Program-made: the position numbers and the translations under genes
From: an uncultured Monoglobus sp.
Lineage (GTDB): Bacteria > Bacillota > Clostridia > Monoglobales > Monoglobaceae
DNA length: 64,000 nt
Assembly (NCBI GenBank): GCA_947624305.1
Contig: CANQKC010000002.1
Coordinates: 1-64,000 of the forward strand
Direction of reading: 5' to 3'
Shown: piece by piece, positions 25,323 through 43,233 of the stretch
How the letters are laid out: the number at the start of each line of letters is the position of its first letter
Numbering within the stretch: the first letter of the stretch is position 1
Notes under the pieces: model-generated
The model's database searches: none
The model's input: only the letters and a program-made list of their open reading frames with translations
What the model was told of the DNA's origin: nothing

Positions 25323-26372
25323 TTATTTCCCCCGACCGTATCTAATCTGTAAAAGTAAATATATTGCATTCGTCCATCTTTGCTTTATGGCAAAGTACAA
25401 TAATCGCTTCGTAAATTTTTCTTTTTTAATATCTATCTGGCGAATAATCAATTGTAAATCATTATCATTAATTATTTTGTTCAATGCAAGTTTCTTATTT
25501 TTAATCGATAGGTTTGAAACAATATACCCATGTAACACCCAAATAACATAATTCATGTGCAAATATGCCAATCTATCTTTAACTTTTTGATTGTATCCAA
25601 GTTCATCGCATTTTTCCTTACAAGCATTATAAAGTTTCTTATACTGTTCATAACGATCCGAACGAAAAGTACGCGACAAGGAATTTTGATTTTCACAGTA
25701 ATAATAGAACGCCTCAGATATTATTGCGAAACTCTGAACGTCATTCATTAGGCATAAAAGCGAATAATGATCCTCTGAAATGAATTTACGTTCAGACACA
25801 AACCTCCAACCGGTTCTAAGTATCAATGAATGGCTAAAAGCTTTCGAGCAAGCATTTAAAGGCAAGTGCATCTTTGTGCCTTGAAGATCTGTTGCAATCA
25901 TATTTGGCAGAATAATATCCAAGATTTCTTTACCCCTATAAATTTCATTTTTCATATTTGGTATATTTCTGCTTTTAATAATATTATTTTTATCTACATC
26001 AAAGCTGCCAAACTGGATAATCTCTGCATTTGTTCTTTCTGCAATTTTCATAATTTTTTCAACTGTATCAAGCGCAATATAATCATCGCTGTCAATAAAA
26101 AACAAATATTCTCCAACAGCATAATCTATTCCTGTATTTCGAGCATATCCAAGACCGGCATTTTGTTTGTGTATCACCTTAATTCGCCTATCATTAACAG
26201 CCCACCGTTCGCAGATTTCAGGGCATTTGTCCGTTGACCCATCATCTACAAGTATGATTTCAATATTCGCATATGTCTGATTTACAAGGCTTTGTAGGCA
26301 CCGTTCCAAATATTGTTCTACATTGTATACCGGAACAATTATAGATGCCAGTTTTTCTATCACAAACAACAC
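25323..26372 (-). CDS. Family 2 glycosyltransferase
   Basis: About 345 residues with the GT-A start ASIIVPVYNVEQYLERCLQSLVNQTYANIEIILVDDGSTDKCPEIC (about residues 9-53) and the metal-binding FFIDSDDYI (about 92-100). It transfers a sugar from a nucleotide donor onto the growing repeat unit at the inner membrane. Residues 130-349 are the variable acceptor part. The start is uncertain: a TTG at 26372 or a GTG two codons on; GGGTGTG is the only nearby site. Confidence 0.88.
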   Translation of the reverse strand: MLFVIEKLASIIVPVYNVEQYLERCLQSLVNQTYANIEIILVDDGSTDKCPEICERWAVNDRRIKVIHKQNAGLGYARNTGIDYAVGEYLFFIDSDDYIALDTVEKIMKIAERTNAEIIQFGSFDVDKNNIIKSRNIPNMKNEIYRGKEILDIILPNMIATDLQGTKMHLPLNACSKAFSHSLILRTGWRFVSERKFISEDHYSLLCLMNDVQSFAIISEAFYYYCENQNSLSRTFRSDRYEQYKKLYNACKEKCDELGYNQKVKDRLAYLHMNYVIWVLHGYIVSNLSIKNKKLALNKIINDNDLQLIIRQIDIKKEKFTKRLLYFAIKQRWTNAIYLLLQIRYGRGK

Positions 26373-26478
26373 ACCCTTCCGTTATTAATTGCTATTATAC
26401 TGTCAAGAATTTTTAAAATACTTTGTGATACAAAATTTTTGATTTTGCAACTTATACTTTTGTAATATAAACTGTTAT

Positions 26479-27450
26479 TTAATTTAAAACATTTTTAATT
26501 ACAACGGTATAAAAAGTATTAGGCTTATTAACTATACTCATTTCTTCATTATTTAATTTCCAAGATAATTTATGAAATGCTGTCATTTCTTTTGTGGCCT
26601 CCCAAATCCGCTTATCATATGCATCAAATAATCTAAGCAATAATATGTGCGGTATCGAATTGCTCACAGGAACCACTTTCATCCATTCATTAGGATAAGC
26701 CTCTATTACAAGCTCCATAAAATCATGGAATAAAAAATAATCAATAGCGTTTTCATGTGTTCTCCAGTATTTATACAATAATGCTTTCATTAACAAAACA
26801 AAAGGATGGTTTGTATGTGCAGTTATAAACCAGTTTGATATTCTGGTTGCATGTCCGTCTAATCCGGGTTTCATGCATTGATAAATAAAGAAATCAGAAT
26901 TCCAAATATAATTTGGAATATTCTTCCCACTGCAGAAAACTGTTGCATCTATCCATGTACCACCATAATGTTCTAACAGTTCCAGACGAAGGAGATCAGT
27001 CATATGTGCATGTCCAATTGTTTCATTGTCGATCTTTTTTTGAATATAGTCCGGGAAAGTCACCCAATCTTTGTAATTCTCATTTGTCAACAGGACTATT
27101 TCTCTGTCATCAAGGTTATCCAATAGCGACTTATAGCATTTCTTGACAATTTCGGGCGCGTTTTCCATTCCTTGCAGCCAACAAACCCATACCTTGTTAC
27201 TGTGTTTATGCGGAAGCTTCTCCCTTTCGGCATCTGACTTTTTAAATTCATCAATAAACGGAGCGTATTTTTTCCGAAGTCTTTTTATAATTCTATTACT
27301 TACGGATTCCCTCACCAACTCCAGTGATTTTTTCGATGTTCCTTCTATTGCCGTCATCATAAGAGCATGGAAAAGCACATGTGCTTGTGCATATTCCTTT
27401 AATACCTTTCCGCCATTTACCTTTTTAAATATTTTTTGAAATTCGTTCAT
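26479..27450 (-). CDS. Capsule-type glycosyltransferase (GT32-like, Caps_synth)
   Basis: A 323-residue protein with KVWVCWLQGMENAPEIVKKCYKSL (about residues 86-109) and HMTDLLRLELLEHYGGTWIDATVFC (about residues 148-172), the DXD-like sugar-nucleotide motif of this family. It probably adds a hexose to the repeat unit. It begins 2 bases after the LicD stop, so the genes are coupled. Confidence 0.85.
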   Translation of the reverse strand: MNEFQKIFKKVNGGKVLKEYAQAHVLFHALMMTAIEGTSKKSLELVRESVSNRIIKRLRKKYAPFIDEFKKSDAEREKLPHKHSNKVWVCWLQGMENAPEIVKKCYKSLLDNLDDREIVLLTNENYKDWVTFPDYIQKKIDNETIGHAHMTDLLRLELLEHYGGTWIDATVFCSGKNIPNYIWNSDFFIYQCMKPGLDGHATRISNWFITAHTNHPFVLLMKALLYKYWRTHENAIDYFLFHDFMELVIEAYPNEWMKVVPVSNSIPHILLLRLFDAYDKRIWEATKEMTAFHKLSWKLNNEEMSIVNKPNTFYTVVIKNVLN

Positions 27451-27452
27451 TT

Positions 27453-28271
27453 CTAATCCACTTCTTTAACATTATGACGATTTCTCAGTTCCATTGGAGG
27501 AGGTGTCATATAATCCGGATACCAACATCTCAAATATGTATCATAATCATCAGGTCCGATAGCGTAAATGTCTTCAAATTTATATTCTGTCCCTTTTCCA
27601 TAAACTTTTTTGGGAACAATTCCCTCAAGACGATCATCTGTTTGAAATGATGCGACCTCTTCCGCCTCATCATACGGAATTCTGCTGATAAGTTTATGAT
27701 ATTTCTCTCCACACTTTATACCATCAAGAAACTTTTCTATTCTTGATATCTGAGCAAACTTAATAACCGCTTTTTCATACCAAGGTCTTTTCTTTTGCAA
27801 ATTAACAATTTCGTCAAAATGTGCTAACTGACACATAGTCCGACGATACATATATTTTATAAAAAAGATTTTCCTTGCCATACCCGGCTTTGGTGCTCCA
27901 TCTATCGCTAATACATCAATCCATGCTCCGGTTCTTATGACTTTATTGGCATTATTTAATGTGTAAGCTTTGTTTTTATTTATTATCATCGAAGACAATG
28001 TAATATGCTCTGCGCCCAACTTATATGTACTGTAATATAAATCCGAAGGCAGTACTTTGTTCGCTATCTGCCCAAAACGTTCATAATCCGGACGCGGCAT
28101 AGCTACATCAATGTCATCGTCCCATGGAACAAATCCCTGATGACGAACTGCACCAATCATACTTCCATAGCAAAGAAAGTAGCGTAGGTGGTTTTCTTCG
28201 CATATTCTTATAAATATCTTAAGAATTTCAAGCTCTGCCTCTTGCAATTTACTAAGTTTATGTTCTGACAT
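27453..28271 (-). CDS. LicD-family phosphocholine transferase-like protein
   Basis: A 272-residue protein with the LicD hallmark LRYFLCYGSMIGAVRHQGFVPWDDDIDVAMPRPDYERF (about residues 24-61). LicD proteins transfer phosphocholine from CDP-choline to sugars of surface polymers. The window encodes both the kinase and the cytidylyltransferase needed for CDP-choline (12.1-14.6 kb), which supports phosphocholine as the substituent, though other phospho-alcohols are possible. Confidence 0.88.
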   Translation of the reverse strand: MSEHKLSKLQEAELEILKIFIRICEENHLRYFLCYGSMIGAVRHQGFVPWDDDIDVAMPRPDYERFGQIANKVLPSDLYYSTYKLGAEHITLSSMIINKNKAYTLNNANKVIRTGAWIDVLAIDGAPKPGMARKIFFIKYMYRRTMCQLAHFDEIVNLQKKRPWYEKAVIKFAQISRIEKFLDGIKCGEKYHKLISRIPYDEAEEVASFQTDDRLEGIVPKKVYGKGTEYKFEDIYAIGPDDYDTYLRCWYPDYMTPPPMELRNRHNVKEVD

Positions 28272-28366
28272 TACTATCGTTTTCCTTTCCCATTTTACAT
28301 GAGCCGACTTTACACATTGTACTTAATTTATCAGCTAAATGTTTAAAGCCAACAAAATACTTAAAT

Positions 28367-29548
28367 TTATTTTTTCATCTGTTTAGCAATATCCTCGTTC
28401 ACAATTTCTTCCCCTGTCTTATCTTTCAGTTGCTCCTGACTTGCGGCGCTTAAACCATTATTGATAGCGGCGCACATGTCACATGTTGAACATTTGTCAA
28501 GCTGCTCCTTTGTGATTTTGCCGTCTCTGTAGTCGCGGCATATCTTATTTTCATACATATTGTACGGTTTACTCGTAAACAGGCTTTTTATTTTGTGTTT
28601 TATGACCCACCACGCCGGTTTCCATATATATTTATGCATAGCAGGACTCACCGAGCCGATCATCCAACACTGCCGGTCGCAATGCCGAACCTTTGATCTG
28701 ACTTTTTCGGCCTCCGGGCTGTTCCACAGCTCGTCCCACGTCTGCTCGTTCAGATTTCCCATAACTTCCTTATCTTTTGTTCCGTTGCACGGCATGACAT
28801 CACCGTATGGATCAATGAAAAAAGTGTCAAAGCTCATATCACACGGAAGCAGCCTCGGCTGACCGTAAATATAGTTGATCAGTCCGTGATTGAAATATGC
28901 CCTGAACCACTTCTTCGGACTGTTACTTTTCAAAAGTTTATTGACAAGGTTTTCAAAGTTCTCCGCCACCATCGGGCGATCGTGAATGATATTCTTTGCC
29001 TCCACAAAATAGAAACTGTTATGAAGCGACGCGGTGGCAAATTCCATACCCATTTCATCCGAAATATCATACAGCGGCACGAGATCCGGCGCGTTCTTGT
29101 CTTGCACTGTCATGCCGAAACCGACGTCCTTCATACCCATCTCGCGCAGCGTTTTAAGCGTTTGGTACCCGCGCTGATAGCCATTATCAAGACCGCGTAT
29201 CTCGTTATTTGTCTGCTCAAGGCCCTCAATCGAGATGCGTATGCCCACCTGAGGGAATTCCTTGCATAAATCCACAATGCGGTCAGTGAAATATCCGTTT
29301 GTGGAGATCACTATGCGGTCTGACTTTTTATATAGCTCGCGCACAATATCCTTCAAATCGGTACGGATAAAAGGCTCGCCGCCGGTGATGTTCGTGAAAT
29401 ACATCGGGGGCAGCTTGCGGATGGTTTCGATGCTGATTTCCTCTTCCGGTTTCGACGGAGCTTTGTATCTGTTGCACATCGTACACCGCGCATTGCAGCG
29501 GTATGTTACTATTACTGTGCCATTAAGTTTTTTTTCTTTTGAAGCCAT
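28367..29548 (-). CDS. Radical SAM protein with SPASM-like C-terminus
   Basis: A 393-residue protein with the [4Fe-4S] motif CNARCTMCNRYKAPSKPEEE (about residues 14-33), FTNITGGEPFIRTDL (about 52-66) and extra cysteines downstream: LPCDMSFDTFFIDPYGDVMPCNG (about 236-258), HCDRQCW and a final CSTCDMC (about 357-363). It lies between LicD and acyltransferase genes. Radical SAM proteins in polysaccharide loci are thought to modify sugars; no reaction can be assigned. Confidence 0.82.
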   Translation of the reverse strand: MASKEKKLNGTVIVTYRCNARCTMCNRYKAPSKPEEEISIETIRKLPPMYFTNITGGEPFIRTDLKDIVRELYKKSDRIVISTNGYFTDRIVDLCKEFPQVGIRISIEGLEQTNNEIRGLDNGYQRGYQTLKTLREMGMKDVGFGMTVQDKNAPDLVPLYDISDEMGMEFATASLHNSFYFVEAKNIIHDRPMVAENFENLVNKLLKSNSPKKWFRAYFNHGLINYIYGQPRLLPCDMSFDTFFIDPYGDVMPCNGTKDKEVMGNLNEQTWDELWNSPEAEKVRSKVRHCDRQCWMIGSVSPAMHKYIWKPAWWVIKHKIKSLFTSKPYNMYENKICRDYRDGKITKEQLDKCSTCDMCAAINNGLSAASQEQLKDKTGEEIVNEDIAKQMKK

Positions 29549-29551
29549 TTT

Positions 29552-30565
29552 TTATTTCCTCTCAAACGATGCCTGAATCCGTTTTTGCAATATGTTCCAG
29601 CAAAATGCCGCGGCAATTGCGCCGGCTATAGTCACAACAGCAATCAGGCTGTAATTTACTATTTCATTTCCGGTTATATGTATCAAATTCAGCTTTTCAA
29701 AAATTCTATATACAAACATGTGGCATAGGTATATCTCCATGCTTAAACCGCCGATAAAGCGGACAACTTTGTTTTGCAGCAAGGTCTCCGATATACCCCC
29801 CCCCGCTGAAATTCCAACTATTGTAAACAAAGTGAAGAGCAGGAGCAAGACAATCGCTGATAGCGAAGCTCTTGTCACAAGATAATAGGCTGCCAGCACT
29901 GCAACAGTCGCTATTCCGACAGCTGTCTTCTGAATTTTATTTATATTTCTCAAACTGTATCTATATAGATAAACAAGTCCACCGGCTACAAAAAATATTG
30001 AGCTGTTTATGATATTCTCTCTTCCATTTGCTCCTTCAAATCTCACAATACACAGAATATGCAAAATCAGGCATACACCCATTACAAACCACGCACGTTT
30101 CTTGTTCTTCATCAGAAACACAAAGAATGGAAAGATCATATAGAAAACGAAAATCGTTCCCAAGAACCAACCCACACCGACAACCTCAATTCCGTTATTT
30201 GGGATTAACCCAAACGCAAGTGTAATATCTGCAAACCACTCATAAAGAGCATTTAAACTGTGGTCAAATATCAGCTCAACGGTGCAAAGCAGAGCGAAGA
30301 ACGGCCATATGCGCTGATAGCGTCTCTTATAGAACCGTTCAAGGCTGATCGTTCCATTTTGGAAGCGCTCATAATAACCGCAGCACATCGAAAACGCCGA
30401 CAGCAGCATGAAAAGCAATGTGAAGTTTGTAAATGACGGAATGAGTTTTTCAAACACGAAACCGGTCAGACCGAAATTCCCGTTTGCGAGAACATGCATC
30501 AGCACTATGCCGACACAGGCGTATGCTCTTATTCCGTCAAGGTTTTCATACCGCTCTTTTGCCAT
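29552..30565 (-). CDS. Membrane acyltransferase (acyltransferase 3 family)
   Basis: A 337-residue protein with about 10 membrane spans, starting RYENLDGIRAYACVGIVLMHVLANG; the His of LMHV is the family's catalytic residue. These proteins acetylate or otherwise acylate sugars using acyl-CoA. Codons for SAGGGIS (about residues 252-258) are made of nine G; G8 and G10 both shift into stops within 35 codons, losing the last quarter of the protein. So acylation of the polymer is potentially phase variable. Confidence 0.87.
   Translation of the reverse strand: MAKERYENLDGIRAYACVGIVLMHVLANGNFGLTGFVFEKLIPSFTNFTLLFMLLSAFSMCCGYYERFQNGTISLERFYKRRYQRIWPFFALLCTVELIFDHSLNALYEWFADITLAFGLIPNNGIEVVGVGWFLGTIFVFYMIFPFFVFLMKNKKRAWFVMGVCLILHILCIVRFEGANGRENIINSSIFFVAGGLVYLYRYSLRNINKIQKTAVGIATVAVLAAYYLVTRASLSAIVLLLLFTLFTIVGISAGGGISETLLQNKVVRFIGGLSMEIYLCHMFVYRIFEKLNLIHITGNEIVNYSLIAVVTIAGAIAAAFCWNILQKRIQASFERK
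29796..29804 (-). repeat. G9 tract inside the acyltransferase gene
   Basis: Five plus four C on plus, so nine G in the sense strand (GCG GGG GGG GGT). The present length keeps the frame open. Slippage by one gives a truncated protein lacking about 80 residues. Confidence 0.7.
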
Positions 30566-30623
30566 TTTTTATCCTTTCTTTATTAACTTTCGCGGAAAAA
30601 CTACAAAGCAAAGGTTACTTTCA

Positions 30624-31745
30624 CTATTTATATACCTCCAAGGTTTTCTCAACCACATCATCCCAGTTAAATTTTTTAACTATGTAATCCGCCGCGGTTT
30701 CCTTATATTTCTCAACCGTCTTGCTGTTATTTATCAAACCCTGCAGCTTGTCCCTAAGATCGTCAACGTCGCCTTTTTTAAATGTTGCCGCTTTGTCTCC
30801 GACAACTTCCGCGCACTCGTCAATGTCACTTGTAAGGCAGCAGTTGCCATAACTCATTGCTTCCAGCAGACTCAGCGGCATACCTTCTAAATCGCTTGGA
30901 AGGCAGTAAACATATGCGTTGCTGTAAAGCTCATGTTTTAATCTTCCCTGAACAAAATCCGTGAAAATTATTCTGTCATCGCCTCTCGCAAGAGCTTTGA
31001 GTTCTTCCATATAATCATTTGTATCTGAACTGCCTCCTGCAATTACAAGCTTTTTATCGGTTTCAATGGTTTTAAAAGCTTCTATTAAATAATGTATACC
31101 CTTCTCCGGCACAATTCTTCCGAGATAAAGGATATAATTATCTTTCTCAAGCCCCCATTTTTCTTTTATCTGTTCGGCGGGTCTTATCGGTTTTCTGTTC
31201 ACGCCGTTCGGTATATACATCGTCTTTCTGCCATATGTATCCGAAAAATATTTCTGTACTCCACGACTGAGAACAATTATCTCGTCGGCGTATTTCACCG
31301 CGTTTTTTTCACCCTGCATTATGTACCAGCTTGCAAAATGTCCCCATTTTGCCCTTTGATGATCAATGCCGTGGATAGTCACAACAACCTTTTTCCCGAA
31401 CAGCTTTGGCAGCCAGCACATGAATGACGGGCCCTCGGCATGGAAATGCACAACGTCATACTTTCCGAATGCCGCCTCTATTGCCGCGAATACGGATGCG
31501 CTCATAGCGGCGTAACCTTTATGATTTATCGTGAAAACGGTTTTCAGCCGCACTCCTTGGTACTCGTCAGATTTTTGTCTATCAAACTCACTGCCGCTTA
31601 CATGATGGCCGCCTCGGTTGAAACATGTCACTTTATCTCCATGCTGAACCATGCGGGTGCTCAGTTCTTCAACAACTACTTCTATACCGCCTTCCCGAGA
31701 AGGCACTCTTTTATGGCCGAGCATTGCTATTCGTAAATTACTCAT
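30624..31745 (-). CDS. Family 4 glycosyltransferase, rhamnosyltransferase-like
   Basis: About 373 residues. The start LRIAMLGHKRVPSREGGIEVVVEEL resembles the DUF1972 domain of WchF/Cps2T rhamnosyltransferases, and the C-terminal GT-B half has LYLGRIVPEKGIHYLIEAF (about residues 207-225) and the donor-binding SDLEGMPLSLLEAMSYG (about 291-307). It follows the NTP_transf_5 gene and so may add the second sugar of the left repeat unit. The ATG at 31745 was preferred to a TTG two codons upstream; the ribosome binding site is weak. Confidence 0.87.
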   Translation of the reverse strand: MSNLRIAMLGHKRVPSREGGIEVVVEELSTRMVQHGDKVTCFNRGGHHVSGSEFDRQKSDEYQGVRLKTVFTINHKGYAAMSASVFAAIEAAFGKYDVVHFHAEGPSFMCWLPKLFGKKVVVTIHGIDHQRAKWGHFASWYIMQGEKNAVKYADEIIVLSRGVQKYFSDTYGRKTMYIPNGVNRKPIRPAEQIKEKWGLEKDNYILYLGRIVPEKGIHYLIEAFKTIETDKKLVIAGGSSDTNDYMEELKALARGDDRIIFTDFVQGRLKHELYSNAYVYCLPSDLEGMPLSLLEAMSYGNCCLTSDIDECAEVVGDKAATFKKGDVDDLRDKLQGLINNSKTVEKYKETAADYIVKKFNWDDVVEKTLEVYK

Positions 31746-31760
31746 TTTCAATCACATCTT

Positions 31761-32918
31761 TTAACGTATATTAAGCTCTTTGAGCCGGTTTTTTCTTTCT
31801 GTTCCGTATTCAAGGCTTTCCCTCAAACCGGATACCATATCCTTTACGGAAAACTTTCTTACAAATACGGCGTAAAAAAATCTGTGCATCCATGCGATCG
31901 GCAGCAGCAGCGGTGATTTTTTTACATATTGATACTTGTGCTGTATCATTTTTCGCGGCGGAAAAAATATCCGTCTGAGCGGACCCACGCTGCTTCCTTC
32001 TCTCCGCACCACCTGGCCGGCGAGTATTTTACCGTCAAGCTCTCTGCCGAACACTCCGTAACTTAACAAAAACTCTAAAAATTTGTCGGGGTCCGGCATT
32101 GTTTTGTCATATCCAATATCTATCTCAAACCACTTCTTTGCGGCGGAAAGAAAATATAGAAAAATTCCTTCATATTTTTGAGATTTACATATTTCATAAA
32201 CCTTGCCGAAATTAATGTCTTTTATCCTGTGTTGTAATATTAATGCGACGTCCAGCATATTTCTGATGCCGCAGCCCTCGCGAGTCATATGCTTAGAGGC
32301 ATGGACAACAACATATGTCAGTTCAAATGTCGGGTCAAGAACCCGCAGGCCTTTATGATTTGTTACAGCATGCTTTTCCAGTTCACGGTTCCAACGTAAA
32401 GGATCATCGCGAAAATCATCCTCAAGCGATTCAAATATTTCCCAATGTGCCGTTCCGTTATCAAGCGCGGAAAAAAGAGTGTTCCTGTTTATCTTATATC
32501 CGTTATTTTCAAAGACTGCCTCCGCAGTCTTGCGCTGTTGTTTTTCTATCAACACATCAAAGTCGCCCATGACTCTTAGGGCGGGGTCGGGATACAGGTC
32601 TTTCAGGACGCAGCCTTTGAGACAGATCGGGTCGATTTGGTTTTCTTTGAGTTTTGCTGACATTCTTTCAAATTCGGCGTTTTTTTGGCTCATGATGACC
32701 ATTGTCTGTATCATAATGCTCCGCCATTGAGCGGCATTGGGCGGCTGCTTGTCCTTCGGCAGCTTCAAAATCGTGCTCGCGAGGAGGCCGGAGATGTTTT
32801 GTTCATATGCCTTATTCCATATATATTGCCAGTCAATATCCTCCGGCGGCAAAGGCGGATCTTCATCAAAAACAGCGGAGCGCGACAGCATGATAAAAAA
32901 TTCTTGCTCCGCCGTCAT
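31761..32918 (-). CDS. Nucleotidyltransferase-family protein leading the left locus (NTP_transf_5)
   Basis: A 385-residue protein with LKGCVLKDLYPDPALRVMGDFDVLIEKQQRK (about residues 101-131), a nucleotidyltransferase-like D-x-D pattern of the PF14907 type. No reaction is established. It is a paralog of the proteins at 34394-35545 and 62746-63909, nearly identical to the first over residues 16-131 and again near RIFFPPRKMI...KYQYVKKSPLLLP. Each starts a polysaccharide locus. GGGAGG lies 8 bases before its ATG. I see no promoter of its own in the 80 bases before the recombination site; transcription may depend on switch inversion. Confidence 0.75.
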   Translation of the reverse strand: MTAEQEFFIMLSRSAVFDEDPPLPPEDIDWQYIWNKAYEQNISGLLASTILKLPKDKQPPNAAQWRSIMIQTMVIMSQKNAEFERMSAKLKENQIDPICLKGCVLKDLYPDPALRVMGDFDVLIEKQQRKTAEAVFENNGYKINRNTLFSALDNGTAHWEIFESLEDDFRDDPLRWNRELEKHAVTNHKGLRVLDPTFELTYVVVHASKHMTREGCGIRNMLDVALILQHRIKDINFGKVYEICKSQKYEGIFLYFLSAAKKWFEIDIGYDKTMPDPDKFLEFLLSYGVFGRELDGKILAGQVVRREGSSVGPLRRIFFPPRKMIQHKYQYVKKSPLLLPIAWMHRFFYAVFVRKFSVKDMVSGLRESLEYGTERKNRLKELNIR

Positions 32919-32998: not shown

Positions 32999-33019
32999 TT
33001 TAAGTAATTAACTTAAAAC
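32999..33019. repeat. Left inverted repeat of the invertible segment
   Basis: A 21-base sequence that is the exact reverse complement of 34270-34290. Each site is itself nearly palindromic, with ACTTAAA/TTTAAGT arms about a short TAATT-type centre, as expected for tyrosine recombinase core sites. It lies 80 bases before the left-locus start codon. Confidence 0.85.
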
Positions 33020-33129
33020 TTAAATGAAAAATCAAATTTAGGGGAATTTATGGTAAAAGCTTTTGAAATAAACAATCTGACACACAAAAAATTCATAAAA
33101 AGCCCGTAATAGGCGCACAAAAATAAATA

Positions 33130-33142
33130 CCCATGCTATGGG
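33130..33142 (-). terminator. Weak terminator after the recombinase gene
   Basis: On minus, CCCAT-AGC-ATGGG forms a 5-bp hairpin followed by TATTTATTTTT, 33 bases past the recombinase stop. It would limit read-through toward the left locus. The stem is short. Confidence 0.35.
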
Positions 33143-33174
33143 CTGAAATGAGAATATTAAAATTTTGTCCGAAC

Positions 33175-34101
33175 CTAAATCTTAAGTAAATTCATAAACT
33201 TACGTTTCATTTCTATTGAAGAATGAACATATCTGTTTAGGGTCATTGTAACATTGGAATGTCCCAATATTTCACTCAATGACTTTATATCAAATTCCAG
33301 TTTTACGCACTCCGTCGCAAACGAATGACGCAAATCATGAAATCGAATATCTTTAATCCTGCATTCTTCCGTAATTTGCTTGAAATACCGCCGCAGCTTT
33401 GCGGGCTCCGGCGGCCTGGCGGTTTCGGAGGCTATGTAGGTTTCATTGGATTTTTTATACCGCTTTAACACCTCATAAAGAAAGTCCGGCAGCGGAATTG
33501 TTCTCACGGAACTGGCCGTTTTGGGCTCGCCGATTAACAGGCGCGTACTGCCGTTGTTATCGGAAACACGCTGAACGGTGCGCCTAACATGTATCAGTTT
33601 ATCGTTTTCGTCAAAATCTCCCCATGTCAGGCCGCAAATCTCGCCTATCCGAAGCCCAGTGTACATTGAAATCAATATTCCGAAGTCATATCCCGACGGG
33701 TCTGTCATAAGCCGCTTTGCCAGACGGGCGCGCTCGCTTCCTTTTAAAACACGCGTTTCCCGACGCTCGGAACGGATTTTACAGTGCACTTTGTTCGGTA
33801 TATCATACATTTGCGCGGCATATTTTGCTACCGAGCGAATGATCGACACAATATCCTTAAGATATTTCCTGGAAAGCTGGCCTTTGCCGCGAAGCCTGCC
33901 GTTCTTCAGCTTATTTTCGACAAAGCAGTTGACTTTTTCCGGGCTGAGCCTTCGCATATCAACATCTCCGAAGATTGGCAGAATGTGGCGGCGCAAAAGA
34001 TAACGATAGTTTTCCAAAGTTGACGGTTTAACACGAAGTTCGACATCATTAAGCCAATTTTGAGCAATTTGCTCAAATGTAATCTTATGCTTTTTAGACA
34101 T
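33175..34101 (-). CDS. Tyrosine recombinase of the promoter switch
   Basis: A 308-residue tyrosine recombinase with a SAM-like core-binding domain (about residues 8-105) and a full catalytic set: Arg151 (TGLRIGEICGLTW), Lys194 (GEPKTASS), His255 and Arg258 (HDLRHSFATE), His281 (LGHSNV) and Tyr291 (NRYVH). It lacks the arm-binding domain of the element integrase at 7067, as expected for an invertase working on simple sites. It lies inside the inverted repeats that flank it, so it would flip with the segment. AAGGAGG precedes the ATG by 7 bases. Confidence 0.92.
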   Translation of the reverse strand: MSKKHKITFEQIAQNWLNDVELRVKPSTLENYRYLLRRHILPIFGDVDMRRLSPEKVNCFVENKLKNGRLRGKGQLSRKYLKDIVSIIRSVAKYAAQMYDIPNKVHCKIRSERRETRVLKGSERARLAKRLMTDPSGYDFGILISMYTGLRIGEICGLTWGDFDENDKLIHVRRTVQRVSDNNGSTRLLIGEPKTASSVRTIPLPDFLYEVLKRYKKSNETYIASETARPPEPAKLRRYFKQITEECRIKDIRFHDLRHSFATECVKLEFDIKSLSEILGHSNVTMTLNRYVHSSIEMKRKFMNLLKI

Positions 34102-34124
34102 AATTATACCTCCTTATTTTGGAA

Positions 34125-34154
34125 ATTATATCATATTCTTACAAATATTTACAA
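34125..34154 (-). promoter_or_regulatory. Promoter of the switch recombinase
   Basis: Minus-strand TTGTAA (34149-34154) and TATAAT (34125-34130), 18-base spacer, 24 bases before the start codon. Confidence 0.65.
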
Positions 34155-34224
34155 GATTTCTCGTTTTATTTATCTCATATTCCCTAACAAATTCAGGATG
34201 GCGTAAAAAAACAAAAAAAAGTAC

Positions 34225-34253
34225 TTGCAATTGTTGCGTTATTGTGGTATCAT
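34225..34253 (+). promoter_or_regulatory. Outward promoter of the invertible segment
   Basis: TTGCAA (34225-34230) and TATCAT (34248-34253) with a 17-base spacer. Transcription would start near 34260, cross the right inverted repeat and enter the middle polysaccharide locus. In the flipped state it would read into the left locus. Confidence 0.65.
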
Positions 34254-34269
34254 ATCAAGAGTATTGACG

Positions 34270-34292
34270 GTTTTAAGTTAATTACTTAAAAC
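34270..34292. repeat. Right inverted repeat of the invertible segment
   Basis: GTTTTAAGT-TAATT-ACTTAAAAC: 9-bp arms about a 5-base asymmetric centre. Bases 34270-34290 are the exact reverse complement of 32999-33019. Confidence 0.85.
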
Positions 34293-34302
34293 ACCGGCCG
34301 GC

Positions 34303-34543
34303 GAGGGGCGGCCAGGCGGCGCTTGCCGCAGGACCGCAAAAGCCTGTCAATCGGCTTTTTCTTTGTCAGTCGGACGCGTAAGGTGGTGTTTCTTTGTCTC
34401 CCGAACAGACATATATAATAGCCCTGTCCAAGGCGGCGATCTTTGATGAAGATCCGCCTTTGCCGCCGGAGGATATTGACTGGCAATATATATGGGATAA
34501 GGCATATGAGCAAAACATCTCCGGCCTGCTCGCGAGCGCGATA
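34303..34543 (+). repeat. Long repeat: leader and 5' end shared with the right locus
   Basis: About 240 bases (leader plus the first 50 codons of the NTP_transf_5 gene) recur as an inverted near-identical copy at 63760-64000; only about five differences are seen in the first 100 bases. The copy is cut by the window end. Confidence 0.9.
34338..34360 (+). terminator. Possible attenuator in the middle-locus leader
   Basis: AAAAGCC (34338-34344) and GGCTTTT (34353-34359) form a hairpin followed by T residues, between the outward promoter and the first gene. The same hairpin is kept in the copy at 63.9 kb. A GC-rich hairpin just before it (34316-34329) is not fully conserved. Confidence 0.45.
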
Positions 34544-35545
34544 TTGAAGCTGCCGAAGGATAAGCAGCCGAACAATGCCGCTCAATGGCGGAACATTATG
34601 ATACAGACAATGGTCATCATGAGCCGGAAAAACGCCGAATTTGAAAGAATGTCAGCAAAACTCAAAGAAAACCAAATTGAGCCGATTTGTCTCAAAGGCT
34701 GCGTCCTGAAAGACCTGTATCCCGACCCTGCCCTAAGAGTCATGGGTGACTTTGATGTTTTAATAGAAAAACATCAGCGCAAGCAGGCTGAGGAAATTTT
34801 TGCTCAAGAGGGATACATGATCCGCAGAGACACATTGTTTATCGAAGTTACCAAAGGAAATATAAACGGGGAACTGTTTGAATCCCTTGAGGCGGAATTA
34901 AAACATGAGCCGCAAAAGTGGAACAATATCCTGAAAAATAACGCGATATACGCGGACGGGAAACGGATATTAAACCCGACATATGAATTTGCGTTTTCGA
35001 TAATACATACCGCGAAGCATTTGATCGGAGTAGGCTGCGGATTGCGAAGCGTACTTGACGCGGTGTTGATGCTGAAGCACAGGCGGAACATTGACTTTGA
35101 AAAGGTAAATGAAGCGTGCAAGGCTCAAGGTTATGAAAGAGTTCTTTCATATATTATAACCATTGCCGAACAATTTTACGGTCTTCGGACCGACGACGGC
35201 ATTGAGAGAATTGACTGTGAGAAATTACTGGAATACATGCTTGACGGCGGAGTGTTCGGTCATACGGATGAAAGCAATGTTCTAATACAACAGGTCGCCA
35301 AGCAGGGAGGCGAGTCCGTAGGAGCGATACGCCGGATATTTTTTCCGCCGCGGGAGATGCTGGCGTATAAATATCAGTATGTGAAAAAATCTCCGCTGCT
35401 CCTGCCGGTTGCATGGGTACACAGATTTTTCACAGCCGTTTTTGTAAGACGCCATTCGATCAAAGGAATGGCCGCAAACATAAACGAAAGCGTCAAATAC
35501 AGCAAAGAACACGACGAAAAGCTTAAAGAACTGGGATTGATATAA
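34394..35545 (+). CDS. Nucleotidyltransferase-family protein leading the middle locus (NTP_transf_5)
   Basis: A 383-residue paralog of the left and right leading genes. The conserved core is ICLKGCVLKDLYPDPALRVMGDFDVLIEK (about residues 98-126), with the D-x-D nucleotidyltransferase pattern. Residues 1-50 match the right-locus copy, and residues 16-131 match the left-locus copy, so it is a mosaic of both. It starts with TTG after AAGGTGGTG. The function is unknown; its fixed first position suggests a common early or regulatory step for all three polymers. Confidence 0.75.
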   Translation: MSPEQTYIIALSKAAIFDEDPPLPPEDIDWQYIWDKAYEQNISGLLASAILKLPKDKQPNNAAQWRNIMIQTMVIMSRKNAEFERMSAKLKENQIEPICLKGCVLKDLYPDPALRVMGDFDVLIEKHQRKQAEEIFAQEGYMIRRDTLFIEVTKGNINGELFESLEAELKHEPQKWNNILKNNAIYADGKRILNPTYEFAFSIIHTAKHLIGVGCGLRSVLDAVLMLKHRRNIDFEKVNEACKAQGYERVLSYIITIAEQFYGLRTDDGIERIDCEKLLEYMLDGGVFGHTDESNVLIQQVAKQGGESVGAIRRIFFPPREMLAYKYQYVKKSPLLLPVAWVHRFFTAVFVRRHSIKGMAANINESVKYSKEHDEKLKELGLI

Positions 35546-35604
35546 ATTTAGTGTAATGAAAATAAGCTAATTCTGCAAAAACAGAAAATAAAGGAGAAAA
35601 CATA

Positions 35605-36054
35605 ATGAAGGTTTGTCTTGTAGGGTCATCCGGCGGACATTTAACGCATCTGTATATGTTAAAGTCATTTTGGGAAAAAGAAGAACGTTTCTGGGTAACT
35701 TTTGATAAAGAGGATGCGCGCAGCCTTTTAAAAGGCGAAACTATATATCCGTGCTATTATCCGACAAACAGAAATATTAAAAATTTAATACGAAATACCG
35801 CTCTTGCAGCAAAAATATTAAAAAAAGAAAAACCGGATTTAATAATTTCATCCGGTGCGGCGGTAGCGGTTCCGTTTTTCTATTTAGGAAAAATTATGGG
35901 ATCAAAACTGATATATATTGAAGTATTTGATCGTATAGACAAGCCAACCATGACGGGAAAAATGGTATATCCGATTACAGACAAATTTATTGTTGAATGG
36001 GAAGAAATGAAAAAGGTTTACCCTAAATCTGTAAATCTCGGAAGTATATTTTGA
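35605..36054 (+). CDS. Glycosyltransferase subunit, PssD/Cps14F-like (Alg14 type)
   Basis: A 149-residue membrane-anchoring subunit with MKVCLVGSSGGHLTHLYML (residues 1-19) and PDLIISSGAAVAVPFFYLGKIMGSKLIYIEVFDR (about 77-110). Alg14-like proteins bring the catalytic Alg13-like partner, encoded next, to the membrane, where the pair adds the second sugar to a lipid-linked unit. AAAGGAG lies 8 bases before the ATG. Confidence 0.9.
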   Translation: MKVCLVGSSGGHLTHLYMLKSFWEKEERFWVTFDKEDARSLLKGETIYPCYYPTNRNIKNLIRNTALAAKILKKEKPDLIISSGAAVAVPFFYLGKIMGSKLIYIEVFDRIDKPTMTGKMVYPITDKFIVEWEEMKKVYPKSVNLGSIF

Positions 36055-36065
36055 GGAATGATAGA

Positions 36066-36560
36066 ATGATATTTGTTACAGTAGGCACTCATGAACAACA
36101 GTTCAACCGACTCCTTGAGTGTATTGATACAATGAAACGAAACAATGAAATTCCGGATGATGTTGTTATACAGACGGGATTTTGCACTTATAAGCCTACA
36201 CACTGTCAATGGGCAAAGCTTTTGCCTTATCAGCAAATGGAAGACAACGTACAAAACGCCCGTATAGTTATAACCCACGGCGGACCGTCGAGCTTTATAA
36301 TGCCGCTGCAACGCGGAAAAATACCTATTGTGGTTCCGCGGCAAAAACAATACGGTGAACATGTAAATGATCATCAAATGGATTTTTGTATAGCCGTAGC
36401 CGAGAGATTTGGCAATATTATTGTAGCTGATAACAATGATGAACTAAGAAACGCGATAATTAATTATGACTCAATAGTAGAGTCAATGCCGAAAAAAATT
36501 ACCAGCAACAACGAATATTTCAATAAGCAATTTAAAGAAATGGTAACAAGTCTGTTTTGA
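36066..36560 (+). CDS. Glycosyltransferase catalytic subunit, PssE/Cps14G-like (Alg13 type)
   Basis: A 164-residue GT28 C-terminal domain: MIFVTVGTHEQQFNRLLECID at the start and VITHGGPSSFIMPLQRGKIPIVVPRQKQYGEHVNDHQ (about residues 67-103), which binds UDP-sugar. The ATG at 36066 follows GAGGAA by about 8 bases; a TTG at 36051 overlapping the partner gene is less likely. Partner of the preceding Alg14-like protein. Confidence 0.9.
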   Translation: MIFVTVGTHEQQFNRLLECIDTMKRNNEIPDDVVIQTGFCTYKPTHCQWAKLLPYQQMEDNVQNARIVITHGGPSSFIMPLQRGKIPIVVPRQKQYGEHVNDHQMDFCIAVAERFGNIIVADNNDELRNAIINYDSIVESMPKKITSNNEYFNKQFKEMVTSLF

Positions 36561-36570
36561 GGTGATATAA

Positions 36571-37674
36571 ATGCTTAAGGCCGGAATAATGTCTATGCAG
36601 AGAATATTGAATTATGGTTCATTTTTACAGGCCTACGGACTCAAAAAAATACTTGAAGAATTAGGTTGCAAAGTAGAGTTTGTTGATTATCATAAAGGAG
36701 ATTGTCTTGTAAAATCTGCCGACAACGGTGTCATAAGAGATCTGGGCAAAGTTGCCGAGGTCTTCGGATGTCACGCGACAATAAAGGATAAATTGCGTTT
36801 TATAAAATATAAAAAGAATTATGCGAAAAATTATTATCCGGTTCTTGATATAAATCAAAATATGAATTTTACACCCGAGCTTGATTTGTTGCTCATAGGA
36901 AGTGATGAAGTATTTAATTGTACACAATCAAATACCAATGTCGGTTATTCACCGGAATTATTTGGAGCAAACAACAGGGCTAAGCGACTTATTTCATACG
37001 GTGCCTCATTCGGCAATACAACACTTGTAAAGCTTAACTCCTATGGGATTAAAAATGAGATCAGCGCTTGGTTAAATGAATTTGATGCCTTGTCTGTCCG
37101 CGATGTTAATTCGGGGAAAGTTGTCAGAGATTTAATTGGTATTGAACCCGAATATCACCTTGATCCGGTTTTAATATATGATTTTTTAAGGAAAGAAAAA
37201 ATACCGGATACGGTTGATGAAAAAGGGTACATAGTATTATATGGTTACACAGGCCGTTTCAGTGTTGATGAATGCAGAGCAATTCAAAAATATGCAAAGA
37301 AAAATGGATTAAAGATACTTTGTATTGGTGGTATTCAACACTGCTGTGACAGGTTTGTAGACTGTTCACCATTTGAGGTGATTTCCTATTTCAAAAATGC
37401 TTGGGCAATTATAACTGATACATTTCACGGAACAATTATATCGGTTATTACACATCAAAGATTTATAACTATTGCACGCAGGAATGATAATATGGAAAAA
37501 CTTATTGATCTAATGCATCGACTTAATTTAAAAGGACAATTACTGATAAATTGGGATGAACTTGATAATAAAATTTGTAACAGTATAGATTATAGCAAAA
37601 TTGATTTATTAATAAAACGTGAGCGTCAAAGGTCTTATGATTATCTTGAAAGGGAAATAAAGTTGTGTATATAA
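36571..37674 (+). CDS. Polysaccharide pyruvyl transferase family protein
   Basis: A 367-residue protein of the PF04230 family, with MSMQRILNYGSFLQAYGLKKIL (about residues 6-27), LLIGSDEVFN (about 106-115), SYGASFGN and AIITDTFHGTIISVITHQRFI (about 284-304). Members add ketal-pyruvate to sugars using PEP. PEP is also the substrate of the phosphonate branch in this locus. It is followed by an F420-hydrogenase-beta-like gene, a common pairing in polysaccharide loci. Confidence 0.85.
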   Translation: MLKAGIMSMQRILNYGSFLQAYGLKKILEELGCKVEFVDYHKGDCLVKSADNGVIRDLGKVAEVFGCHATIKDKLRFIKYKKNYAKNYYPVLDINQNMNFTPELDLLLIGSDEVFNCTQSNTNVGYSPELFGANNRAKRLISYGASFGNTTLVKLNSYGIKNEISAWLNEFDALSVRDVNSGKVVRDLIGIEPEYHLDPVLIYDFLRKEKIPDTVDEKGYIVLYGYTGRFSVDECRAIQKYAKKNGLKILCIGGIQHCCDRFVDCSPFEVISYFKNAWAIITDTFHGTIISVITHQRFITIARRNDNMEKLIDLMHRLNLKGQLLINWDELDNKICNSIDYSKIDLLIKRERQRSYDYLEREIKLCI

Positions 37675-37714
37675 AATAAAACACTGTACTTTATAAGATA
37701 GTGGAGGCGTGTTT

Positions 37715-38857
37715 GTGAATACAGTATGTAAAGAAAATTCCTGTACGGGTTGTATGGCTTGTCTGGATGTTTGTCCGAAAAGTGCAATTACAATTAAAGA
37801 CTTGCTTAATACATATAATGCTCAAATAAATGAAGAGTTATGTATTAAGTGCGGGCAATGCTATAAGGTTTGCCAATGTATAAATCCGGTTAGTAAAACG
37901 AATTCTATAAAATGGTATCAAGGGTGGGCTGCTGATAATGACATAAGAATGAGCTCTTCTTCCGGTGGCGTAGCAAGAGCTTTGTCGGAAACAATGATAA
38001 AAAATGGCGGCCTTGTATGCAGTTGTATATTCGAAAAAGGAGAGTTTCGATTTTATATAGCTAAAACACTTGATGGATGTGAAAAATTTAAAGGCTCAAA
38101 ATATGTAAAAAGCAATCCTCGGGGAATATATAATAAAATACAAAATTATCTGAAAAAAGGTGAAAAAGTTTTATTTATAGGATTGCCTTGTCAAGCTGCG
38201 GCATTAAAAAACTATTTAGGAAACAATTATGAACAAAACCTATACATTGTTGACCTTATATGCCATGGAACGCCGTCTCCTAAATTGTTAGATATTTTTA
38301 TGAGACAGCATGGTTATGTACTAAAAGACTTAAAAAATATAATGTTTAGAGAAAAAAGTGATTTTAAAATAAAAAATAAAAATAATGATAATAAGTATAT
38401 CGGGATTGCAAAAAATAATATTAGAGATACTTATATGATCGCTTTTTTAAAAGGCTTATGTTATACCGAAAATTGTTATCATTGTACATATGCGAATAAA
38501 GACAGAGTTTCAGATGTTACTATCGGGGATTCTTGGGGCAGCAAATTGAATATAGAAGAGCAAAAAAGGGGAATATCTCTAATTTTATGCCAAACACAAA
38601 AAGGTGTTGATTTAATTAATCAATGTGATTTACATTTGGAAGATGTAGATATCGAAAAAGCAATTGCTGCTAATAATCAGTTAAAAAAACCTTCTTTGAA
38701 AAACAAGAAAACAGAATGGTTTTTTGAAAGAATAAAAAATGGAGGTAATTTTGATAATTTAGTTAATAAAATATATCCGTTTGAGCATATGAAACAAATA
38801 ATTAAATGGATAATGAGAAAAATTTGCGTATATAAACATGTATGTAAATACGAATAA
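37715..38857 (+). CDS. Ferredoxin-like F420 hydrogenase beta-subunit family protein
   Basis: About 380 residues. Two [4Fe-4S] motifs occupy the N-terminus: CTGCMACLDVCPKSAI (about residues 10-25) and CIKCGQCYKVCQC (about 42-54). A FrhB-like domain follows, with SSSSGGVARALSE, KYVKSNPRGIYNK and GLPCQAAALKNYLG. In polysaccharide loci these proteins accompany pyruvyl transferases; they may be redox enzymes acting on sugars, but no reaction is established. GTG at 37715 was chosen because GGAGG is 7 bases away; the GTG at 37709 touches it. Confidence 0.82.
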   Translation: MNTVCKENSCTGCMACLDVCPKSAITIKDLLNTYNAQINEELCIKCGQCYKVCQCINPVSKTNSIKWYQGWAADNDIRMSSSSGGVARALSETMIKNGGLVCSCIFEKGEFRFYIAKTLDGCEKFKGSKYVKSNPRGIYNKIQNYLKKGEKVLFIGLPCQAAALKNYLGNNYEQNLYIVDLICHGTPSPKLLDIFMRQHGYVLKDLKNIMFREKSDFKIKNKNNDNKYIGIAKNNIRDTYMIAFLKGLCYTENCYHCTYANKDRVSDVTIGDSWGSKLNIEEQKRGISLILCQTQKGVDLINQCDLHLEDVDIEKAIAANNQLKKPSLKNKKTEWFFERIKNGGNFDNLVNKIYPFEHMKQIIKWIMRKICVYKHVCKYE

Positions 38858-38894
38858 AAACAGGATAGATAATTAGATATGGAGGTGATCTATT

Positions 38895-40058
38895 TTGTTT
38901 AAACATATTTTTATAAAAAAGGTTCTTAAAAACTCGGTTTTTAAGGTGATGAATATAATTAATGTATTAACACCTAAATTACAAACCAATATATTGCTTT
39001 ATGCATCTAATAAAGGATTGGGTAACAATTTAATCCCTTTAAGAGATGTTTTAACTAAAGATAAATATAAAGAAAAATACAGAGTTATTTGCGGCATAGA
39101 GAATAAAAAGTATAAAGATATGGAAGCGGACAATATTGTTTACACCACGCCGGTAAAGTCTGTTATTTATTTTTTATTTTCGAAAACCGTATTTTATACA
39201 AACGGACAAATACCTGTTAAGCCGACAAAAAAACAGAATGTCGTCTATGTGTGCCATGGAATAGGCGGATTGAAACTTGATGCAAAATTGTTAAAAGTTG
39301 ATGTAGGTTATGGTAATTATTTTAATCATTTTCTGGCAACCGCTGACATATATACGCCTATTCTTGCAAAGGAATTTGATTGTGACGAGAAAGATATATT
39401 TGTATGTGGCGAGCCCGTAACAGATGTATTTTTTAGGGAAAATATAACTAAATATGATTTAGGTGATTTTAAAAAGGTTATCCTTTGGGCTCCTACGTTC
39501 AGACAATCAGACTATCTTGGATATGTTGATTCCTCGTCCAATGAATATCTTCCTTTGTTTGATGATAATGATTATGAGGAATTGAACAATGTGTTAAAAA
39601 AGCATGGGTTTCTGTTAATTGTAAAACTTCATAGCGCTCAAAATACAGAGGCACTTAAAAAATGTATGTTTTCAAATTTGAGAATATATACACATGACGC
39701 GTTTGAGGAAGCGGGTTATTATTTATATGAATTGCTGCCACAGATAGATGTGTTATTGGCAGATTATTCATCAGTATATAACCAATTTTTATTATTAAAT
39801 AAACCTATCGGCTTTGTGATTCCGGACATTGAAGAATATGCCGAAAAACGAGGATTTATATTTGAAGATCCCGAACGATATATGCCGGGAGAAAAAATAA
39901 AGGATAAAGACTCGTTGTATCGTTTTTTTGATGATATTGATAATGGAATAGATAAATTTGAAGCGGAAAGATTAGCGGTTAAAAACCTTCTGCATAAATA
40001 TCAAGATGGAAATAACTGCAAAAGAATATTTGAAAGGTTTAACATAAAGGCGGATTAG
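38895..40058 (+). CDS. CDP-glycerol glycerophosphotransferase-like protein (TagF/TagB family)
   Basis: A 387-residue GT-B-like protein. VVYVCHGIGGLKLDAK (about residues 117-132), VILWAPTFRQSDYLGY (about 195-210), IVKLHSAQN and DVLLADYSSVYNQFLLLNKPIGFVIPD (about 287-313) match the PF04464 family, which transfers glycerol or ribitol phosphate from CDP-alcohols. In this locus the CMP-linked donor could instead be a phosphonate; that is inference. TTG start, 4 bases after a full GGAGGTGATC site. Confidence 0.85.
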   Translation: MFKHIFIKKVLKNSVFKVMNIINVLTPKLQTNILLYASNKGLGNNLIPLRDVLTKDKYKEKYRVICGIENKKYKDMEADNIVYTTPVKSVIYFLFSKTVFYTNGQIPVKPTKKQNVVYVCHGIGGLKLDAKLLKVDVGYGNYFNHFLATADIYTPILAKEFDCDEKDIFVCGEPVTDVFFRENITKYDLGDFKKVILWAPTFRQSDYLGYVDSSSNEYLPLFDDNDYEELNNVLKKHGFLLIVKLHSAQNTEALKKCMFSNLRIYTHDAFEEAGYYLYELLPQIDVLLADYSSVYNQFLLLNKPIGFVIPDIEEYAEKRGFIFEDPERYMPGEKIKDKDSLYRFFDDIDNGIDKFEAERLAVKNLLHKYQDGNNCKRIFERFNIKAD

Positions 40059-40156
40059 ACCTTGTGAACTTTTAAGAAGATAAATAATATAGAATGAGGG
40101 CAGTAAAATTACGCTAATATTTGTATTTAAGCAGAATGAAAGGTTGATTATTAACT

Positions 40157-41005
40157 ATGAACTTTTTATCAAAATGTAAAACTTATTTTTCTGGAGGCGA
40201 ATGGTATGTTTTGTATAAGAAGATAAACGAAAAATCTTTCAAGGAATTGCATGGCAGTAAGAATTATTGGTATGCGGATCCATTTTTGATTGATTATAAT
40301 AAAAATACATACCTTTTTACAGAGGCGTTCAATGAAAAAACTCAAGTTGGTGAAATTGCTGTTTCAGTATTACAAAATGGCAGTTTTTCAACTCCGGAAG
40401 TAATAATAAAAAATAAGTATCATATGTCATACCCTAATGTATTTGTGTATGATGATGTTGTTTATATGCTTCCTGAAACGGGAGAAGGACATATGCTCGA
40501 GTTATATAAAGCCGTCAATTTCCCGAATAAGTGGGAAAAATATATTTTAAAATGTAATGCTGTATTTGCTGATTCTACAGTATTTATAGCGGACAATATA
40601 ATATATATTTTAGCTTATGATGATATAAAAAATATAACAGAGTTATATATATTAAACATAAAAAATAAATCTATTGATTGTGTTGGACGAAAACAACATA
40701 TTGATAAAAATAAAAGGCCTGCAGGTAATTTGTTCTATTCAAACGATATATTATATAGGCCTACGCAAAATTGCAAAAAAAAGTATGGAGAAAGCATAAT
40801 AATTAATAGAGTTGAAAATTTCGAAAAACAAGATGAGGTGTTCGTTCAAGAAATAACCGCAAATAAAATAGGGATTAGTTATTCCCGAGTACACACATTA
40901 AACTTTAGCAATCGATATATGGTTGTTGATGCATACGCAGAAAAAGCGGGAATTGACTGTTTCATAAAAAGGGCAAAAAGAAAATTGCATAAATTAAAAA
41001 TATAA
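40157..41005 (+). CDS. Beta-propeller glucosamine-transferase-like protein (GINT1-N type)
   Basis: A 282-residue protein with NYWYADPFLIDYNKNTYLFTEAFN (about residues 34-57), MSYPNVFVYDDVVYMLPETGEGHMLELYK (about 92-120) and RPAGNLFYSNDILYRPTQNC, the repeated-blade pattern found at the N-terminus of glucosamine inositolphosphorylceramide transferase-like and formyltransferase-fused proteins in polysaccharide loci. The biochemical role in bacteria is not known to me. Confidence 0.65.
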   Translation: MNFLSKCKTYFSGGEWYVLYKKINEKSFKELHGSKNYWYADPFLIDYNKNTYLFTEAFNEKTQVGEIAVSVLQNGSFSTPEVIIKNKYHMSYPNVFVYDDVVYMLPETGEGHMLELYKAVNFPNKWEKYILKCNAVFADSTVFIADNIIYILAYDDIKNITELYILNIKNKSIDCVGRKQHIDKNKRPAGNLFYSNDILYRPTQNCKKKYGESIIINRVENFEKQDEVFVQEITANKIGISYSRVHTLNFSNRYMVVDAYAEKAGIDCFIKRAKRKLHKLKI

Positions 41006-41060
41006 AAGAATATGTGTAAAAATATTATATCGCTATGTTAATTGGGGATTAAATTTAGAA

Positions 41061-42149
41061 ATGAAAAAAGTATTAATAATAATAACAACCGGATTTGCCT
41101 CCTACGGAGGTTTGACTACGGTTATGATGAATTATTACCGCGCAATGGACAAGTCCGGATTAAAGATAGATTTTGCCTCGACAAACGAAGCAGCTGATGA
41201 TTTAGTCGAAGAATTAAACCGGAACAGCTCTCGGTATTTTTGTTTAGGAGACAGGAAGAAACATTTATATAAGTATATAAAGAATTTGCGGAGTTTGCTG
41301 AAAAGCGAACAGTATGACGTAATTCATGTAAACGGCAACAGCGCCACAATGTGTCTTGAATTGTCGACCGCAAAGCACTGCGGCGTGAAAACTCGCATTG
41401 CTCACGGACACACAACCGGCAGCAGCTATAAAGCTATTGGATTTGCGCATAAGTATTTGCAAAGCTACTTTAAAAGTTTATGTAATTATCGTCTGGCTGT
41501 TTCCGATTATGCAGGAAAATGGTTATACGGCGATGATTATGAGGTTATAAACAATGCCATTGAAGTAAGCAAATATGCGTTCAATGATGATGTTAGAATA
41601 AGCTGCCGGAAAAACTTACAAATTGAAAATCAATTTGTGCTTGGGCATCTGGGAAAGTTGTATGAACCTAAAAATCATGAATTTTTATTAAAGGTTTTTT
41701 GTGTGCTAAAACAAAAATGTCCTGACACTGTGCTTTTGTTAGTTGGCGGGGGTCATTTGGAATCAAAGCTTAAAGAACAATGTAAAAATTTAGATATAAA
41801 AAAGAGTGTTATATTTACGGGTATGGTTGACAATCCGAGCGAATATCTGCAGGCAATGGATGTATTTGTGTTTCCGTCGCTGTATGAAGGATTTCCGCTT
41901 TCCTTGATTGAGGCCCAAACAAACGGTCTTCCTTGTATAGTTTCGGACACGATCACACGCAACGCTAAAATTGCAGACAACGTTGTATATAAATCGCTTA
42001 ATGATGGAATAGATTCATGGGCGGAAAAGGTTTTGTCAATTATAAATGCAGGCTGTAAAAGAAACATAAACGCCCGTAAAGATGTTAGCGAACATGGTTT
42101 TGATATAAAAAAAGAGGCGGGAAAATTACTAAAAATATATTTGACATGA
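41061..42149 (+). CDS. Family 4 glycosyltransferase
   Basis: A 362-residue GT-B enzyme: FASYGGLTTVMMNYYRAMD (about residues 11-29), YDVIHVNGNSATMCLE, LGHLGKLYEPKNHEFLLKVF (about 194-213) and FVFPSLYEGFPLSLIEAQTNGLPCIVSD (about 272-299). It is related to the right-locus enzyme at 61645-62742 (shared YAGKWL.G and INNAI elements). It adds one sugar of the middle-locus repeat unit. Confidence 0.9.
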   Translation: MKKVLIIITTGFASYGGLTTVMMNYYRAMDKSGLKIDFASTNEAADDLVEELNRNSSRYFCLGDRKKHLYKYIKNLRSLLKSEQYDVIHVNGNSATMCLELSTAKHCGVKTRIAHGHTTGSSYKAIGFAHKYLQSYFKSLCNYRLAVSDYAGKWLYGDDYEVINNAIEVSKYAFNDDVRISCRKNLQIENQFVLGHLGKLYEPKNHEFLLKVFCVLKQKCPDTVLLLVGGGHLESKLKEQCKNLDIKKSVIFTGMVDNPSEYLQAMDVFVFPSLYEGFPLSLIEAQTNGLPCIVSDTITRNAKIADNVVYKSLNDGIDSWAEKVLSIINAGCKRNINARKDVSEHGFDIKKEAGKLLKIYLT

Positions 42150-42161
42150 AAGGACAGTATC

Positions 42162-43184: not shown

Positions 43185-43233
43185 AACAAGTGTTTATCAA
43201 TTAAATAAAAAACGTGAAGGGAGTATCTGTGTT

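Follow-up and report, generated by a model that had tools for sequence, protein, structure and literature searches.

A probable self-contained invertible promoter cassette, carrying its own tyrosine recombinase, between divergent surface-polysaccharide loci of an uncultured Monoglobus

The Hin/H2 switch of Salmonella toggles one operon. In the sap S-layer island of Campylobacter fetus an invertible segment with one promoter lies between divergent homologs that have conserved 5' ends, and larger nested inversions reach further homologs; these are protein genes, and no recombinase is known to lie within the segment. Xer1 of Mycoplasma agalactiae is a recombinase of the tyrosine type. In the vpma system of that organism, this site-specific recombinase brings a unique promoter to one or another of several silent alternatives (PMC5634654). 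Hin is an example of a recombinase located within the invertible segment, while in Bacteroides fragilis one distant serine recombinase, Mpi, serves at least 13 regions, seven polysaccharide loci among them (PMC5903667). Tyrosine-recombinase switches have also been described in Clostridia, in the form of Clostridioides difficile RecV and of the Clostridia inverton group 139 and invertase group 35 (PMC5903667; PMC11892184).

The segment described here occupies positions 32999-34290 of the window, by which is meant the whole stretch of 64,000 nucleotides that was analysed, and it is very probably a self-contained invertible promoter cassette. It is bounded by two inverted arms of 21 nt each, site 1 on the left (32999-33019, plus strand) and site 2 on the right (34270-34290, minus strand), with 100% complementarity; the longest inverted match in 300 first-order Markov shuffles of the region was 14 nt. 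The site itself is a 19-bp near-palindrome, TTTAAGT-AATTA-ACTTAAA, in which two symmetric half-sites flank the 5-bp core AATTA. This core is the sole asymmetry within the 19 bp, and it is therefore the core that gives sites 1 and 2 their inverted relative orientation. Symmetric half-sites around an asymmetric core are the layout expected of a simple tyrosine-recombinase site. The 1.29 kb between and including the arms contain the recombinase and promoters and nothing else. As in an inverton, inverted repeats surround an outward promoter; the sites immediately around the segment are inverted, not direct as for the integrase of an ICE or prophage.

The recombinase gene (33175-34101, minus strand) is an intact open reading frame of 308 aa that matches Pfam families PF00589 (1.4e-27) and PF14659 (2.1e-13), giving a SAM-like core-binding and a catalytic domain. 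The R-K-H-R-H-Y residues that define the catalytic domain of a tyrosine recombinase are all in place (R151, K194, H255, R258, H281 and Y291), and the nearest solved structures are 6en0, 6emy and 6emz, "Int protein". A putative promoter for the gene, TTGTAA-18-TATAAT with TG ahead of the -10 (34125-34154, minus strand), is divergent from the predicted outward promoter P (34225-34253, plus strand; score 12.3). P consists of TTGCAA-17-TATCAT and has an extended -10 TG; it reads through site 2 into the right-hand locus and is the sole strong site in that direction. Both promoters are consensus matches, and over the two strands of the 64-kb window the same matrix reaches 10 or more at 65 positions. 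At the other extremity, the A-end (33020-33174) is without a notable outward promoter; the recombinase gene is followed there, ahead of site 1, by a terminator-like hairpin (33143-33129, minus strand) that is weak as a terminator, with 6 pairs of which 3 are G-C.

Homologs of the recombinase at E<=1e-52 are present in 21 of the 391 sampled genomes of the class and are mostly repeat-enclosed where checked; the self-contained design, which the preliminary description had taken to be unusual in Clostridia-like genomes, is therefore common in the class and less unusual than first thought. Three other genomes of the class each carry several homologs at 45-53% identity. All eight of the closest complete homologs in this range are enclosed by an inverted-repeat pair with the same type of half-site, and the cores of these eight cassettes are mostly different from one another. 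Most homologs at 31-41% identity lie between near-palindromic repeats of other kinds. In a tree, one branch divides 34 repeat-enclosed and 7 non-enclosed recombinases from 18 non-enclosed integrases, and the group with TTTAAGT-type sites, the window's recombinase included, has full support. Furthermore, in all 34 cassettes the outward promoter score at the recombinase 5' end (the P-end) is higher than that at the A-end (Wilcoxon p = 8e-7). The scanned stretch was often longer at the 5' end, a bias somewhat in its favour, but the 5'-end score also exceeds that of shuffles in most of the 34. Among the relatives, the promoter of one (L117) is directed at an operon headed by a helicase-associated-domain protein, and that of four others (L114, L115, L116 and L118), in the opposite orientation, at what was judged by eye to be a terminator-like hairpin. 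The window's cassette has the features of the recombinase-inside clade: it falls in the same clade, and it has near-palindromic inverted repeats and an outward promoter at the recombinase 5' end.

In the collection of named genomes there were no close homologs and two distant matches only. A homologous recombinase of the Ruminococcus albus 7 plasmid pRUMAL02 adjoins a helicase-associated-domain/sugar transferase locus, and one on an Enterococcus raffinosus megaplasmid adjoins a SecA2/SecY2 export locus; the enclosing repeats are of 20 bp for one R. albus copy and of 18 bp for the Enterococcus copy. In a further genome (G376) two cassettes, on contigs C120 and C139, have identical site and core, and their recombinases could therefore cross-act on each other's sites.

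Evidence for inversion comes from another cassette of this genome (at about C1:26867-28250), a sister 37% identical to that of the window. When it is compared with its copy on contig C14 of genome G008, which represents another species, 16 kb align at 99.9% identity and only the 1,384-bp segment from repeat to repeat is inverted. The adjoining operon starts with a sigma factor and reaches a large subtilase/RCC1-repeat protein; the cassette's promoter is directed towards this operon in G008 and away from it in the present genome. Four more locus pairs were found in opposite states. The fact that the segment is inverted between flanks of such identity shows that cassettes of this family flip in nature. 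The flipped state that the preliminary description had proposed to look for in related genomes was thus found for sister cassettes; flipping is established for the family rather than for the window's cassette, which has a single orientation in assembly GCA_947624305.1. Another recombinase-inside cassette of the genome, at about C1:184500-186300, adjoins cohesin/dockerin and S-layer-homology surface proteins.

These observations bear on whether the segment might be a dead relic, the remnant of a mobile element whose integrase and attachment-like repeats have lost recombination. The recombinase does fall in the phage/transposon integrase superfamily, but enzyme and sites are intact and they are accompanied by promoters alone; the association with enclosing inverted repeats extends across the clade, and relatives flip naturally. 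A relic is accordingly a very improbable explanation.

To the left of the cassette, locus 1 (19690-32918, minus strand) starts about 80 bp beyond site 1 and comprises an NTP_transf_5 gene, glycosyltransferases, LicD, Caps_synth, a flippase and Wzy_C, the last of O-antigen-ligase type and a candidate polymerase. Locus 2 (34394-52046, plus strand), which is downstream of P in the assembled state, comprises an NTP_transf_5 gene, PssD/PssE-type transferases, a pyruvyl transferase, a flippase and phosphonate-type genes. It also includes a 409-aa open reading frame (44458-45687) that has no Pfam match and is, by position only, a possible polymerase. Each of the two flanking loci has its own flippase and glycosyltransferases, and its own polymerase, clearly so in locus 1 and probably in locus 2. 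Their leading genes are paralogs, both PF14907 and 59% identical. A third locus (53480-63909, minus strand), with an NTP_transf_5 gene, glycosyltransferases, EpsG and a flippase, lies further to the right.

Locus 2 has a GC-rich structured 5' leader (34291-34393, plus strand) that contains a terminator-like hairpin (34338-34359) and may regulate read-through into its locus. The leader is 97% identical to that of locus 3 across 286 bp. Copies are common to loci 2 and 3 and to the related genome G012 (window 34291-34393, L058 11911-12010 and L082 10416-10520), with folding z values of -3.6 for locus 2, -3.3 for locus 3 and -3.9 for G012. Locus 1 is without this leader, and no Rfam family matched it even at E<=1.

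Next to locus 1 are genes for a BCCT choline-type transporter, a trimethylamine methyltransferase and a choline kinase/nucleotidyltransferase (9039-14706); beside a LicD-bearing locus they possibly point to phosphocholine decoration. The same side of the window has a pemK RNA motif (Rfam RF02913; 6320-6397) and a second integrase gene (394 aa; 7040-8224) with two tRNA genes close by (8353-8426 and 8581-8664).

From this layout, the cassette probably toggles between loci 1 and 2. The recombinase, expressed from its internal promoter, would recombine the two 21-bp sites and so invert the whole segment, its own gene included. P would read through site 2 into locus 2 in the assembled orientation and into locus 1 in the inverted one, and inversion would swap locus 2 on and locus 1 off for locus 1 on and locus 2 off. 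For the window's own cassette we infer inversion, transcription, exclusive use of the promoter and any use of the third site described below. Scanned with the same matrix, no promoter comparable to P faces locus 1 (best scores of 1.7 outside the left repeat and 4.9 inside the left end), and outside the sites no notable promoter was found for either of loci 1 and 3. The preliminary description, which had noted perfect near-palindromic repeats around a complete tyrosine recombinase, an outward promoter towards the right, a left locus lacking one beyond its repeat, and paralogous leading genes, is borne out in each of these respects; its proposal of a self-contained invertible promoter gains support from the family-wide repeat enclosure, the conserved outward promoter and the naturally flipped relatives.

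Alternatively, the cassette could be an ON/OFF switch of locus 2 alone, with locus 1 independent, served by its own promoter or by read-through from the recombinase gene. Most relatives appear to be one-sided and hence ON/OFF switches. Further, the recombinase transcript points to locus 1 across the weak terminator. However, no notable promoter towards locus 1 lies within or beyond site 1, and locus 1 starts close to that site with a lead gene paralogous to that of locus 2; a switch of locus 2 alone is thus unlikely. Among the cassettes compared, that of the window is the sole clear case with paralog-led loci at both sides, and it is distinguished by facing two loci, as against one locus switched on and off. 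In another family (L111) an NTP_transf_5-led polysaccharide locus directly adjoins a cassette of the same clade.

Exactly three copies of the 19-bp site are present in the 2.68-Mb genome, and a backward control gave no match. Site 3, at C2:64013-64033, is 13 bp past the end of the window and upstream of the leftward locus 3, so that all three copies head NTP_transf_5-led loci. The preliminary description had missed this site, with which the switch may act on three loci instead of two. The sequence of site 3 is complete, its core is identical, and it points the opposite way to site 2; the same enzyme could therefore invert the 30-kb block of loci 2 and 3, which would place locus 3 behind the promoter. 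The sites would permit four arrangements, given by the orientation of the cassette and that of the 30-kb block, in which the locus predicted to lie behind the promoter is locus 2 in one, locus 3 in one and locus 1 in two. Sites 1 and 3 are directly oriented, and recombination between them would delete the block. A tentative reading is that of a three-position selector, in which a single promoter, packaged with its own tyrosine recombinase, serves three complete surface-polysaccharide loci: sites 1 and 2 would select left or right, and the nested 30-kb inversion between sites 2 and 3 would pick which of two convergent loci occupies the right outlet.

It is also possible, with chances that we regard as about even, that the cassette is a plain two-position toggle using sites 1 and 2 only, site 3 being the fossil end of an older locus-3 cassette without recombinase or promoter, and locus 3 being silent or served by another promoter. 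On its gene side, site 3 shares 97% identity over 286 bp with the leader of locus 2, and on its outer side 125 bp match the A-end of the cassette (site and flank) at 89%; such a make-up would also match the OFF-orientation junction of an older cassette. The sister species G012 has a site 3 stub with the same flanks and an intact related locus, and no recombinase of the cassette type was found there at E<=1e-20, so the stub may predate the present arrangement. Against this, site 3 is perfect in sequence, core and orientation, the reading frames of the locus 3 genes are open, and no obstacle to the enzyme acting on the site is visible. Taken together, the best explanation, which we hold with good confidence, is a self-contained promoter cassette that toggles loci 1 and 2 and for which site 3 is potentially usable.

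Since G012 keeps the locus and site 3 with no such recombinase found, its locus may have an unrecognised promoter; the upstream flank of locus 1 is homologous and locus 1 could therefore have one too. For leftward transcription from the gene to the right of site 3, a stable hairpin and T run lie before the site, so read-through into locus 3 from there is not obvious. Positions 1-20000 of the window gave only scattered short matches to G012. An epimerase gene fragment at 19185-19521, the far end of locus 1, is 94% identical to the epimerase gene at 52223-53416, between loci 2 and 3, and in G012 the entire gene has the opposite orientation with respect to the adjoining locus, which suggests that loci were exchanged in the past. 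The reversed gene is not claimed as proof of a past 30-kb inversion, since the locus genes beside it are different. Numerous short repeats, roughly 30-130 bp in length, lie at C2:77953-81265 and C2:95259-95544, and their expansion differs in G012.

If this interpretation is correct, Clostridia-like bacteria would select whole alternative surface polysaccharides by a compact one-piece switch, in contrast to Bacteroides, in which numerous individual promoters depend on an enzyme encoded elsewhere. Each recombinase of the clade encloses itself in its own sites, so its substrate can be read from the genome; phase-variable surface loci would then be predictable from sequence, and the broad clade supplies a series of recombinases paired with sites whose cores are distinct.

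With regard to known systems, the cassette is like the Hin/H2 switch in having a recombinase gene and an outward promoter inside the segment. The likeness is in layout only: Hin is a serine recombinase and that of the window a tyrosine recombinase, and one operon is served by the former whereas the latter faces two whole polysaccharide loci. The Mpi capsule switches are likewise invertible promoters of polysaccharide loci, but their enzyme is distant, of serine type and shared by many promoters, whereas that of the window is local, of tyrosine type and within the segment. Since the Hin and Mpi families use serine recombinases, the window's cassette is a member of neither. RecV has several distant sites, unlike a recombinase that sits inside its own segment, and the sole group 139 example with coordinates, at about 0.25 kb, is too short for a recombinase. 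No match for a capsule switch of Clostridia with a tyrosine recombinase embedded in it was found in open-licence papers, which does not show the design to be undescribed. The possible three-way choice resembles both the C. fetus sap island and vpma/Xer1; the vpma alternatives are single lipoprotein genes, and PMC5634654 does not place the Xer1 recombinase inside the inverted segment, whereas the alternatives at the present cassette are whole polysaccharide loci.
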